Positions 16,781 to 21,987 of a stretch of DNA of 64,000 bases are shown in pieces; position 1 is the first letter of the stretch, and each line of letters starts with the position of its first letter. Location: the NCBI GenBank assembly GCA_020832305.1, contig JAFIEV010000046.1:124001-188000 (forward strand), given 5' to 3'. The DNA comes from Cyclobacteriaceae bacterium (GTDB lineage Bacteria; Bacteroidota; Bacteroidia; Cytophagales; Cyclobacteriaceae). The position numbers were made by a program, and so were the translations under genes. Under the pieces are notes generated by a model. The model was not told the origin of the DNA and did no database searches. It worked only from the letters and a program-made list of their open reading frames with translations.

Positions 16781-17047
16781 AATGATAGATTTTTGATATT
16801 TTTGAAACCTGTAATGTTGACTGTTAAAATAATTATTGCATGATATTCTTTTAACCTCGGAATATCTAATGAAAACAAACTAATGCGAAATCTTTTTGGC
16901 CCAAACTTTTTAATACACATAGATTGGATTTTATTTTTTTTTGAGATTGTCAAACATGCTACTTTTGCAATGCTTCTAATAAATAAAAATAATGGCTGAT
17001 TTTTTATCATAGGGCCAAATGGTTTACTAATAATCTAATACAAATAC

Positions 17048-18700
17048 ATGAAAATTATAAAAATTGCCTTTTTGTCTGGTATGTTAGTGTACTGTCATTT
17101 CTTTGCATTTGCCCAATACAAAACTACAGATCAGATCATCAGAGAGCTTCAACAATTACAAGGCAGGCATACATCCCTGGCAGAATTCAGAATTATTGGA
17201 AAAAGCTATGGTGGCATTGATCTACCTGTGATTTTATTGGGTGAAAATCCTGCTGAAGTTAAACCTGCTATTCTTCTTGTTGCGGGTATTGATGGAAGAC
17301 ATATTTCAGGCACTCAGCTGGCGCTCAAAATTGCCGCAGAGACCCTGAATAATCCAGATGACAGCATCAGGCAGGCTTTGCTAAATCATCATCTTTACAT
17401 TATTCCATTCATCAATCCCGACGCACTGAGTTCTTATTTTGGTGAAATGCGCTTTGAGAGGAGAGGAAATGCCAGACCGACCGATCACGATAGAGACGGA
17501 CGTGTTGATGAAGATCCATTCGAAGACCTGAATAGAGATGGCCTTATTACACTTATGCGGATTGCTGACCCATCTGGAACACATATTCCTCATCCCGAAG
17601 ACGAAAGGATTCTCATTCAGGCAGATCCATCAAAAGGTGAAAAAGGTAAATATCTCGTTTATACAGAAGGGATAGACAATGATAAAGATGGCAGATTTAA
17701 TGAAGATGGATTGGGAGGTGTATGGATAGATAAAAATTTCAGCTTTGATTATCCGGCTTTTTCTGAAGGTGCGGGTGAAATGGCTGTATCGGAACCTGAA
17801 TCCCGGGCATTGCTTGATTTTATTTACCAACACCCGAATATCCACACCATAATTACCCTGGGGCCATCCAACAATCTTACGAAAGTTGCAGCCTATGATG
17901 AAAAACAAGCTACAGCCAGGATTATGACATCGCCGGCAAAAGCAGATGTTGTGGCGGCCGAGTGGGTATCAGCATTATTTAACCGAAGTATGGCCACCAA
18001 CGAAGCCCCAGAATTGCCTTTGCAAAGAGGAGACTTTGTTCAAACTGCATACTTTCATATGGGTCGATTCAGCTATGCCAGCCAGGGATGGTGGCCACCT
18101 GAAGTAAATTTGCCAAAGGATACAACGCAAACGAATGAAGAAAAAGTAAAAAGCGACGAACGCGCCAAAAATGAACTAAACTTTTTGCGGTGGGCCGACC
18201 GTGAAGGAATCGATGTCTTTGTTCCATGGCAGTCCATACAACATCCTGACTTCCCAGGCAAAACAGTAGAGGTTGGAGGAATCCGGCCTTTTGCTATGCT
18301 CAACCCACCGGTTGTTTACCTCGACACTGTGAGTCAGTATTATAAAAAATTCATCCGCGATCTACTCTGGGCCTCGCCCAAAGTAGAATTGGTCGATGCC
18401 ACTGTGGAACAAATTGATAAGCAATTATTCAGAATTACGGTAAAAGTAATTAACAGCGGACTCTTACCCACCGGCACAGGCAGTGGCGATAAGCTGCGCT
18501 ACATGCCCAACCTTAAAACTGAAATAGTTTTAACTGAAAAGCAAACACTGCTTTCAGGCAAGAAACACTACCTGAGAGGAGCCCTGGCACCCGGGGAATC
18601 TGTGGAATACAGCTGGCTGATCCAGGGTTCAGGCGCTGTTTCACTTAGCACCGGAAGCCCGGCTGCCGGAAAGGCAACGTACCAAACACAATTGAAGTAA
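17048..18700 (+). CDS. M14 carboxypeptidase-like protein lacking zinc ligands
   Basis: The 550-residue secreted protein (signal peptide about residues 1-23, ending FAFAQ) aligns by eye with the M14 peptidase encoded next to it, but its catalytic positions are gone. Where the active relative has IDGNIHSNELQGSE, this protein has IDGRHISGTQ (81-90), without the HxxE zinc pair. Where the relative has LYHNYGG, it has ITLGPSN, and no NELM-type catalytic Glu is present. It keeps two acidic, Ca-binding-like inserts (DHDRDGRVDED with DLNRDG, and DNDKDGRFNED). It is therefore probably a non-catalytic M14 homologue, perhaps a binding protein or partner of the downstream enzyme. The gap between the two genes is 96 bases. 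Confidence 0.82.
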   Translation: MKIIKIAFLSGMLVYCHFFAFAQYKTTDQIIRELQQLQGRHTSLAEFRIIGKSYGGIDLPVILLGENPAEVKPAILLVAGIDGRHISGTQLALKIAAETLNNPDDSIRQALLNHHLYIIPFINPDALSSYFGEMRFERRGNARPTDHDRDGRVDEDPFEDLNRDGLITLMRIADPSGTHIPHPEDERILIQADPSKGEKGKYLVYTEGIDNDKDGRFNEDGLGGVWIDKNFSFDYPAFSEGAGEMAVSEPESRALLDFIYQHPNIHTIITLGPSNNLTKVAAYDEKQATARIMTSPAKADVVAAEWVSALFNRSMATNEAPELPLQRGDFVQTAYFHMGRFSYASQGWWPPEVNLPKDTTQTNEEKVKSDERAKNELNFLRWADREGIDVFVPWQSIQHPDFPGKTVEVGGIRPFAMLNPPVVYLDTVSQYYKKFIRDLLWASPKVELVDATVEQIDKQLFRITVKVINSGLLPTGTGSGDKLRYMPNLKTEIVLTEKQTLLSGKKHYLRGALAPGESVEYSWLIQGSGAVSLSTGSPAAGKATYQTQLK

Positions 18701-18796
18701 AAAAATTATTCGCAATACAGGCAAATTACCGGCAACAACTATTCTGGCAATGATTATGATGAACTGTGGTTTGCAGTATTTGAAAATATAGATATT

Positions 18797-20554
18797 ATGA
18801 AAATCAAGAGAATTATTTTTGCAAGTACCTCATGGTTGCTTTTTTCTTTTGGGATTGTTATAGCCCAAACTCCGACTGCAGAAGATCTTACCGGACTTCG
18901 GGCCATAGGCTCACCCGCCAATCCCAAAGTGAAAATGTCATGGAACCGCTACCATAACTACCAGCAAATCACAGATTTTTGTCGCCAGTTGACCTCCGCC
19001 TATCCGGGATTGGTCACCATGGAAAGTATGGGTAAATCCTTTGAAAACAGAGACTTGTGGGTATTGGTTATCAGCGATAAGTCGACAGGTGACCCTGGAA
19101 AAAAACCTGGTTTTTATATTGATGGCAACATTCATTCCAACGAATTACAAGGCTCAGAAATAGCTATGTATACTGCATGGTACCTGGCAGAAAGTTTTGC
19201 CAGTGTAAAATTTATCAGAGAATTGCTCCAGGATAAGACTTTTTACATTGCGCCAACTGTAAATCCCGATGCCCGGGAGTATTTTATCTATCATCCCAAT
19301 ACCCCTAATTCTCCCAGATCAGGAATGGTTCCCTTCGATGATGATGGAGATGGAAAAGTGGACGAAGATAAGTACAATGACCTGGATGGTGATGGAAATA
19401 TTGTGATGATGCGCCGTAAAAGCCCTGCAGGACGATGGAATCAGGATCCTGATTTTCCGAATCGCATGGTGCCTGCCAAACCAGGTGAGCCAGGTACCTA
19501 CGAATTACTGGGTTATGAAGGTTATGATAATGACGGCGATGGATTGGTCAATGAAGATGGTATTGGCAGTTATGATCCCAACCGCGATTGGGCCTGGAAC
19601 TGGCAGCCGAGTTATATCCAATATGGCGCCTTGCCTTATCCTGCCTATTTGCCGGAAACCCAGGCTATGAAAGAATATGTATTGAAAAATAAGAACATAG
19701 CAGGGGCTCAGTTATACCACAACTATGGAGGGATGTTTCTGCGAGGCCCCGGAGTGGCAGAAGATGCCCCACTTTATTCCCAAGCCGACATTCAGGTCTA
19801 CGATGCCATAGGAAAACTGGGAGAGAAAATCATACCCGGTTACAATTATCTTGTATTGTACAAAGATCTTTACTCTGTGTATGGCGGCGCCATTGACTGG
19901 TTCAGCCTGGGCAGGGGTATTTTTACGTTTACCAATGAACTCATGACTTCCTATAAGCTCTTTGGACAATCTTCAAAAGAAGGCAGGTGGCAGAATACGG
20001 ATTTTTATGAATTTGATAAGTACCTTTTATTTGGCGATGGATATGTTGAATGGAAGCCATTTAAGCACCCGCAATTTGGCGATATAGAAATCGGCGGTCC
20101 CAAGAAAAACTATATCCGCAACCATCCGGGTTTTCTGCTCGAAGAGGAGGCGCACAGAAATATGGCTTTTACGATCTTTCATGCCTGGTATATGCCCAAG
20201 CTTACCATACAGGAAATTAAACAAAAAGACCTGGGCGGGGGGTTAACGGAAATTACCGCTACTGTGCTTAACGAGCGATTAATACCTACCCATTCTGACC
20301 ATGACATCAAAAACAAAATCACCCGACCCGATTTTATCCGTATCAAAAATGCCAGTGTATTGGCAGGTATGGTTGTTGAAAATGAAGATCTTGGCATAAC
20401 ACGGGAACAAAAATTCAGGCCTGAGGAAATTGAGCTGGCCAATATCCCTGGTATGTCTATGGTAAAAGTCCGTTGGATTGTAAAAGGAAAAACGGGAAAA
20501 GCCGCCGTTGAAGTCGATAGCGAAAAGGGTGGTTTTATAAGTCGTGAGCTATGA
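18797..20554 (+). CDS. Secreted M14-family zinc carboxypeptidase
   Basis: The 585-residue protein has a signal peptide (residues 1-24) and the full M14 active site. The zinc pair is H113-x-x-E116 in GNIHSNE, followed by NPDARE, DPNRDWAWNW with the Asn-Arg pair that holds the substrate carboxylate, LYHNYGG with the third zinc ligand, and FTNELMTSY with the catalytic Glu. Two acidic inserts (DDDGDGKVDED with DLDGDG, and DNDGDGLVNED) look like EF-hand calcium loops, an addition seen in some bacterial M14 proteins. It should remove residues from the C-terminal end of peptides in the periplasm or outside the cell. The next gene (PLP decarboxylase) overlaps its last four bases, which implies co-translation. 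Confidence 0.92.
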   Translation: MKIKRIIFASTSWLLFSFGIVIAQTPTAEDLTGLRAIGSPANPKVKMSWNRYHNYQQITDFCRQLTSAYPGLVTMESMGKSFENRDLWVLVISDKSTGDPGKKPGFYIDGNIHSNELQGSEIAMYTAWYLAESFASVKFIRELLQDKTFYIAPTVNPDAREYFIYHPNTPNSPRSGMVPFDDDGDGKVDEDKYNDLDGDGNIVMMRRKSPAGRWNQDPDFPNRMVPAKPGEPGTYELLGYEGYDNDGDGLVNEDGIGSYDPNRDWAWNWQPSYIQYGALPYPAYLPETQAMKEYVLKNKNIAGAQLYHNYGGMFLRGPGVAEDAPLYSQADIQVYDAIGKLGEKIIPGYNYLVLYKDLYSVYGGAIDWFSLGRGIFTFTNELMTSYKLFGQSSKEGRWQNTDFYEFDKYLLFGDGYVEWKPFKHPQFGDIEIGGPKKNYIRNHPGFLLEEEAHRNMAFTIFHAWYMPKLTIQEIKQKDLGGGLTEITATVLNERLIPTHSDHDIKNKITRPDFIRIKNASVLAGMVVENEDLGITREQKFRPEEIELANIPGMSMVKVRWIVKGKTGKAAVEVDSEKGGFISREL

Positions 20555-21987
20555 TGGACAAAGAAACTTTTAGAAAAGAAGCCCATAAAATGGTCGATTG
20601 GATGGCCGATTACCTTGAAGGAGTAGAGAAATATCCTGTGCGAAGTCGGGTAAAACCCGGAGAAATTTATGATCAAATGCCTGAAAATGCTCCGGAATTT
20701 CCCATTCCTTTTGAAAAAACCTTTGAGGACTTCAACCAAATACTAATGCCAGGCATTACCCATTGGCAGCATCCAATGTTCATGGCTTACTTTAATGCCA
20801 ATACCAGTTATCCGTCGATTTTGGGGGAAATGCTTACAGCAACCCTCGGTGCACAATGTATGATTTGGGATACCTCTCCGGCAGCTGCAGAGCTGGAACA
20901 GAGAGTTTGTGAATGGATGCGGGATTTGCTTGCCCTGCCTAAAGACTTCACAGGGGTTATTCAGGATACCGCATCTACCTCAACCCTATGTGCGCTGCTC
21001 ACTGCCAGAGAAAAATATTCCGATTATGCCATCAATCGCAAAGGATTTGGTTCAATGCATAAATTCAGGATTTATTGTTCTGAACATGCCCATTCATCCA
21101 TAGAAAAGGCGGTGAAAATAGCTGGTTTCGGACAGGAGAACCTGGTGAAAATCGAATGTGATGAAAAGTTTTCAATGAAAACCGCTGAACTGGAGAAAGC
21201 AATTCACGGAGACCTTGCCGATGGACTCAAGCCTCTGATGGTTGTAGCTGCCCTGGGAACTACGAGCACCCTGGCCTTGGATCCTGTAGAGGAAATAGGC
21301 GAAATTTGTAAACATTTTAAGATATGGTTACATGTAGATGCTGCCTATGCCGGAACAGCCGCCGTGCTCCCCGAATACCGGTGGATTCATAAAAGCATGG
21401 AATATGCCGATTCTTATGTGGCAAATCCGCATAAATGGATGTTTACCAATTTCGATTGTTCTTTGTATTATGTGAGGGATCAGGAAAGCCTTATACGTAC
21501 CTTTGAGATACTTCCCGAGTACCTCAAAACAAAAAATACAGACAGGGTAAACAATTACCGCGATTGGGGTATACAATTAGGCAGGCGTTTTCGCGCCCTT
21601 AAATTGTGGATGGTACTTAATACTTATGGAGCTGAGGGCATCCGTCGTCTGTATCGCAAACACATCGAAATCACCGAGGTTTTTACTGAAAAACTACAAA
21701 GGAATAAAGATTTCAGGATCATGGCACCGGTTTTTTTAAACCTGGTCTGCTTCAGATACCAACCCGAAGGAATGAATGAGGATGATGCAGATGCAATGAA
21801 TGCACGCATTCTGGATGCAATAAACAGCAGTGGCCATGCCTACCTGAGTCATACGCGCTTGCATGGCAGGTATGTAATCAGGGCCTGTTTTGGCCAAACC
21901 CGGGTAGAATGGCATCATATGGAGCGATTGTATGAGGAACTAATATCAGTCTCAGGGCTTGAATGTGAGAGCCCTGAGATTAAATAA
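20551..21987 (+). CDS. PLP-dependent group II decarboxylase (aromatic amino acid type)
   Basis: The 478-residue protein matches the group II pyridoxal-phosphate decarboxylases (aromatic-L-amino-acid, tyrosine, glutamate). It begins with the FRKEAHKMVDWMADYLEG segment typical of the aromatic branch and has HPMFMAYFNANTSYPSILGEM, the substrate/PLP block HVDAAYAGTAAV (Asp about 264) and the PLP lysine in NPHKWMFTNFDC (Lys about 295). It should convert an aromatic amino acid into an amine and CO2 in the cytoplasm. The start overlaps the preceding M14 stop codon (ATGA), so the two are translationally coupled. The link suggests that amino acids freed by the peptidase feed the decarboxylase, which would give amines such as tyramine or phenethylamine, but that is inference. 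Confidence 0.9.
   Translation: MMDKETFRKEAHKMVDWMADYLEGVEKYPVRSRVKPGEIYDQMPENAPEFPIPFEKTFEDFNQILMPGITHWQHPMFMAYFNANTSYPSILGEMLTATLGAQCMIWDTSPAAAELEQRVCEWMRDLLALPKDFTGVIQDTASTSTLCALLTAREKYSDYAINRKGFGSMHKFRIYCSEHAHSSIEKAVKIAGFGQENLVKIECDEKFSMKTAELEKAIHGDLADGLKPLMVVAALGTTSTLALDPVEEIGEICKHFKIWLHVDAAYAGTAAVLPEYRWIHKSMEYADSYVANPHKWMFTNFDCSLYYVRDQESLIRTFEILPEYLKTKNTDRVNNYRDWGIQLGRRFRALKLWMVLNTYGAEGIRRLYRKHIEITEVFTEKLQRNKDFRIMAPVFLNLVCFRYQPEGMNEDDADAMNARILDAINSSGHAYLSHTRLHGRYVIRACFGQTRVEWHHMERLYEELISVSGLECESPEIK

Follow-up and report, generated by a model that had tools for sequence, protein, structure and literature searches.

Why should a bacterium keep, directly beside an intact peptidase gene, a full-length homologue from which the catalytic residues appear to have been lost? 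The question is raised by two adjacent genes, here termed A and B, in a 64,000-nucleotide stretch of DNA from a Cyclobacteriaceae bacterium (contig JAFIEV010000046.1, positions 124,001 to 188,000; the whole of this stretch is referred to as the window). Both products match the Pfam family Peptidase_M14 (PF00246) above its curated cut-off (A, 58.8 bits against 21.6 bits; B, 123.9 bits), and the two intact reading frames lie on the same strand, 96 nt apart (table 1). The original prediction held that A lacks the HxxE zinc pair, the third zinc His and the catalytic Glu, all of which B retains, that it keeps its signal peptide, fold and calcium-like inserts with no stop or frameshift, and that it serves a function without catalysis. 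Here, we follow these claims through the sequences, predicted structures and genomic neighbourhoods of A and B.

Table 1. Features of the A–B locus, in window coordinates. Counts for A refer to the best 80 of at least 477 relatives, and counts for B to 78 B proteins.
Feature	Position	Strand	Basis or conservation
Bacteroidetes-type promoter-like site (weak), 5′ of A	16940..16967	+	5 matches in window versus 4.1 expected
Gene A: M14-fold pseudopeptidase, 550 aa, putatively exported	17048..18700	+	ORF, Pfam, model
A signal peptide, residues 1–22, likely cleavage A22|Q23	17048..17113	+	sequence; cleavage inferred
A D82..H85, replacing zinc pair H69xxE72	17291..17302	+	E 33 and D 32 at position 82, H 60 at position 85; never HxxE
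A Asp-rich calcium-like insert 1, residues 146–171	17483..17560	+	most conserved of all domain windows of equal length
A Asp-rich calcium-like insert 2, residues 207–220	17666..17707	+	98th percentile of windows
A K229, position of carboxylate-binding R145	17732..17734	+	K 67, R 13
A G272–N276: G for third zinc ligand H196, then conserved NN	17861..17875	+	
A residues 335–348: invariant Y335, H337 and W348; Q346 replacing catalytic E270	18050..18091	+	
Gene B: intact M14 metallocarboxypeptidase homologue, 585 aa, putatively exported	18797..20554	+	ORF, Pfam, model
B zinc pair H113xxE116	19133..19144	+	H 77/78, E 76/78
B R174 (R127-like)	19316..19318	+	78/78
B N262–R263 (N144–R145-like carboxylate anchor)	19580..19585	+	78/78
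B third zinc ligand H308	19718..19720	+	78/78
B catalytic Glu E381	19937..19939	+	78/78

The loss in A is complete. Zinc ligands H69, E72 and H196 are replaced by D82, H85 and G272, and the catalytic E270 by Q346, exactly the residues that had been reported missing, so that nothing is left of the HxxE, later His and catalytic Glu of an active M14 site. The zinc pair has become DxxH, in which the two ligand types are swapped, a detail absent from the earlier account; in a phmmer alignment with carboxypeptidase A2, D82 and H85 fall on the HARE motif. A also has D228–K229 where B has N262–R263. B carries H113xxE116, R174, N262–R263, H308, Y359 and E381, each in M14 register, and includes the four catalytic residues (H113, E116, H308 and E381) attributed to it. 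The spacing from D367 to E381 is the same as that from D256 to E270 of bovine carboxypeptidase A. Because its site is complete, from the zinc ligands and the catalytic Glu to the carboxylate anchor, we infer that B is an active carboxypeptidase.

AlphaFold2 models, built with 80 homologues, were obtained for A (mean pLDDT 90.8, pTM 0.90) and B (mean pLDDT 85.0, pTM 0.87). In structural searches, for which Foldseek was also run, the top-ranked match of both models was carboxypeptidase T of Thermoactinomyces vulgaris (1obr, 6f79), a rank tied with other M14 enzymes (A, Z 31.5 over 289 residues at 2.6 Å; B, Z 35.2 over 304 residues at 2.9 Å). Profile score and structural match thus both place A in the M14 alpha/beta fold; unlike carboxypeptidase T, which is a single active enzyme, A lacks the zinc site, and the two are 19% identical. 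The models also bear on the alignment itself. The zinc-pair loop follows strand 74–79 in A and 105–109 in B, G272 and H308 follow strands 265–271 and 301–307, and Q346 and E381 follow strands 341–345 and 376–380. Equivalent positions come after equivalent strands in both models, which confirms the residue register and matches the altered positions of A to the catalytic positions of B by strand order.

Signal peptides with the A|Q cleavage site of Bacteroidetes (the Q-rule; PMC5837995) suggest that A and B are both exported, to the periplasm or cell surface; AQ is the majority pair at this site among the A proteins of the best 80 of at least 477 relatives. Neither protein matched a T9SS sorting domain in an NCBIfam search, and secretion by that route is unsupported. 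Asp-rich DxDxDG inserts, which resemble calcium-binding loops, occur in both proteins and in A belong to its best-conserved parts. The signal peptide (residues 1–22), the fold and the inserts (146–171 and 207–220) are kept in A, as had been proposed. The promoter-like site upstream of A is suggestive only. A gene resembling PLP-dependent aromatic-amino-acid decarboxylases (window positions 20551–21987) overlaps the B stop by 4 nt (ATGA) and may be co-transcribed with the pair in the window; as a general neighbour of the pair it was rejected, a homologue being found in 0 related loci.

Relatives of A were sought in two ways. Among 395 genomes from the phylum, searched at the protein level, 36 had a homologue, and the neighbourhoods of these were retrieved. 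A scan of genome contigs with the single sequence returned no relatives of A, but a profile scan of GTDB representatives recovered at least 477, from which the best 80 were retained. These include Flavobacterium, Arcicella, Runella, Larkinella, Rufibacter, Siphonobacter, Pedobacter, Dokdonia, Cellulophaga and Roseivirga, together with Saprospiraceae, Chitinophagaceae, Bacteroidales, Balneolaceae and Rhodothermia MAGs. In the alignment of the best 80, which contains the A of the window, neither the zinc triad nor the catalytic Glu is present in a single protein. Position 272 is Gly in 77 and Ser in three, and is followed by N275 (79/80) and N276 (75/80); position 346 is Pro in 75, Gln in four and Thr in one. 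The same loss in all 80 homologues shows that it did not arise by chance in the window, and on the strength of these alignments it is ancient and fixed.

A protein stripped of its original ligands might still bind metal, or act as an enzyme, through a rearranged site in which [D/E]82xxH85 is joined by a further residue, for example H337. The swapped motif [DE]xxH does occur in 47 of the best 80 relatives, and H337 is invariant. However, residues other than D or E stand at position 82 in 15 of these proteins and residues other than H at position 85 in 20, the third ligand and the catalytic Glu have given way almost throughout to Gly and Pro, and H337 corresponds to position 261 of CPA, which precedes E270 by nine residues and is not a zinc-site position. 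Judged by conservation of His, Asp and Glu, no alternative set of ligands has been fixed at the old site, and a relocated zinc site was rejected on these grounds; we regard this explanation as improbable.

Could A simply be a pseudogene in early decay? Its catalytic residues are gone and, by Nei–Gojobori estimates, it changes about twice as fast as B. Against this, pairwise dN/dS at dS < 1 lies at about 0.02–0.12 for A (about 0.01–0.08 for B when the same pairs of genomes are compared), far below 1, which excludes the neutral decay that would have undone the original prediction. A is under strong purifying selection. Its length is kept at 534–601 aa in the best 80 relatives, the loss is common across the phylum, and 32 columns are invariant across 26 diverse A sequences, so that decay is scarcely credible. 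With its catalytic residues lost and its gene maintained by selection, A is a pseudopeptidase. The former zinc-pair loop is of average conservation (57th percentile). Segment 335–339 reaches the 99.5th percentile of windows, segment 340–351 the 97.5th and the Asp-rich inserts the 100th and 98th, and Y335, H337 and W348 are invariant in all 80. This pattern implies that A has a fixed residue set of its own, distinct from that of the enzyme.

The next gene downstream of A, on the same strand, is B in all 79 loci that could be tested among the best 80 of at least 477 relatives (at the remaining locus, L129, the sequence stops about 250 nt past A), with gaps of −14 to 242 nt, mostly below 100. No other gene family is common to more than seven of 81 neighbourhoods, and the linkage is therefore specific to the M14 pair. 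Across the 395 genomes, 36 have both genes, none has A only, one has B only and 358 lack the pair altogether (Fisher p 2e-50, a value that ignores relatedness). Strong B matches accordingly number 37, and in the lone-B genome (G135) the locus is cut by a contig end, with B opening the contig. Of the 36 copies of A, one is partial at a contig start (G326) and another is a partial copy of 365 aa (G116). A single genome (G192) has A and B inside different contigs, with the partner beside neither, and keeps both. Active and inactive homologues thus form a conserved gene pair.

The pair spans 13 family codes in the 395-genome sample, in which it is patchily present. The trees of A and B mirror each other with the same groupings, as expected for a unit that is moved and lost together. 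Among the matches listed, the pair in the window is closest to pairs from Flavobacterium, Arcicella and Spirosomataceae and less like pairs from its own family, a hint that the unit may have been transferred horizontally. Natural fusions of A and B, which would have spoken for a partnership, were not seen. In some Bacteroidota the active partner has been duplicated a second time: at L110, L114, L126, L070 and L073 (the last starting inside A), two B-type genes come after A. Two longer pseudo-M14 proteins of about 690–730 aa, with EGTIP in place of HxxE, are encoded at L071 (7628–9703, − strand) and L072 (5911–8115, + strand) beside a deep-branching B type; their placement with A in the tree is not firm, and they may be another dead lineage, or one that has diverged very far. 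In a Flavobacteriales MAG (L087:7655–9413), B is split into two frames by a frameshift or an assembly error.

Purifying selection, kept length, fixed site loss, and near-obligate co-occurrence and adjacency with B together uphold the proposal that A functions without catalysis. The linkage further favours a partnership, and we consider it reasonably probable that A is a dedicated non-catalytic partner of exported B, encoded directly upstream of it. As part of that reading, A would be unable to bind zinc or to hydrolyse peptides in the M14 manner. B would trim C-terminal residues from peptides, and A, physically associated with B, would aid it as a subunit by assisting its folding, by binding substrate beside it or by shaping access to its active site. 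A stronger version, in which the two form an obligate two-subunit M14 carboxypeptidase and A is needed for B to fold, to select its substrate or to be active, is put forward more tentatively.

Operon linkage and co-occurrence would also fit if the proteins shared a pathway and never touched. A might then be an independent binding protein, in which the old cleft captures peptide C-termini in the same pathway as B and no stable complex forms. The position of R145, a carboxylate anchor, is Lys or Arg in all of the best 80 relatives (K/R229), and position 138, beside the R127 equivalent, is Arg or Lys in 76. Yet A has no counterpart of Y248, its residue 331, at specificity position 255, varies among the relatives, conservation of the old zinc loop does not exceed the average, and the cleft may be filled by conserved Trp residues that come after position 346. 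We therefore hold such capture to be rather unlikely, and partnership with B remains the favoured explanation.

In two Hymenobacteraceae genomes the only close B has itself lost zinc ligands: it has E116Q in Sabulibacter ruber (L121:7662–9410), and H113R and E116Q in Rufibacter psychrotolerans (L152:7666–9414); H308 and E381 are kept in both. In this clade B evolves faster than A, which stays conserved, and both proteins may be non-catalytic in the two species. Loss of zinc ligands from B implies that the value of A there is independent of an active B, and argues against a role for A limited to boosting catalysis by B.

In the review PMC11266112, pseudopeptidases of the M14 family are described for eukaryotes only (CPD domain III, AEBP1/ACLP, CPXM1, CPXM2 and Ecm14), and their roles are mostly unclear. 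A resembles them in combining an M14 fold with substituted zinc, substrate or general-base residues and in being putatively exported, and CPD domain III adjoins active CPD domains much as A lies beside B. All of them retain at least one zinc ligand (H69 only in CPD domain III, all three in Ecm14; PMC11266112, table 2), whereas bacterial A has lost H69, E72, H196 and E270 together and is encoded on its own, immediately 5′ of its active homologue. The nearest functional precedent is found in the M16B peptidases, where subunits from neighbouring bacterial genes assemble into heterodimers and only one of the two chains carries the zinc motif (PMC12731061), as in TTHA1264/TTHA1265, SPH2681/SPH2682 and AlbF/AlbE; mitochondrial MPP alpha/beta is a further case (PMC12731061, PMC11266112). 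These, too, are paired genes, one for a zinc peptidase and the other for a homologue that lacks the zinc motif, but they belong to an unrelated peptidase family and fold. No description of a bacterial M14 pair of active and inactive genes was found in the open-licence PMC literature; pseudopeptidases are known, as are peptidase pairs with one active and one inactive member, but their combination in M14 is apparently new.

A bacterial pair so strictly linked throughout the phylum offers a genetically simple system in which to examine what use a live carboxypeptidase has for a dead one, and it occurs in culturable genera, including Flavobacterium, Runella and Pedobacter. If the obligate two-subunit version is true, A and B would constitute a heteromeric M14 enzyme, built of an active and a dead homologue from one gene pair.
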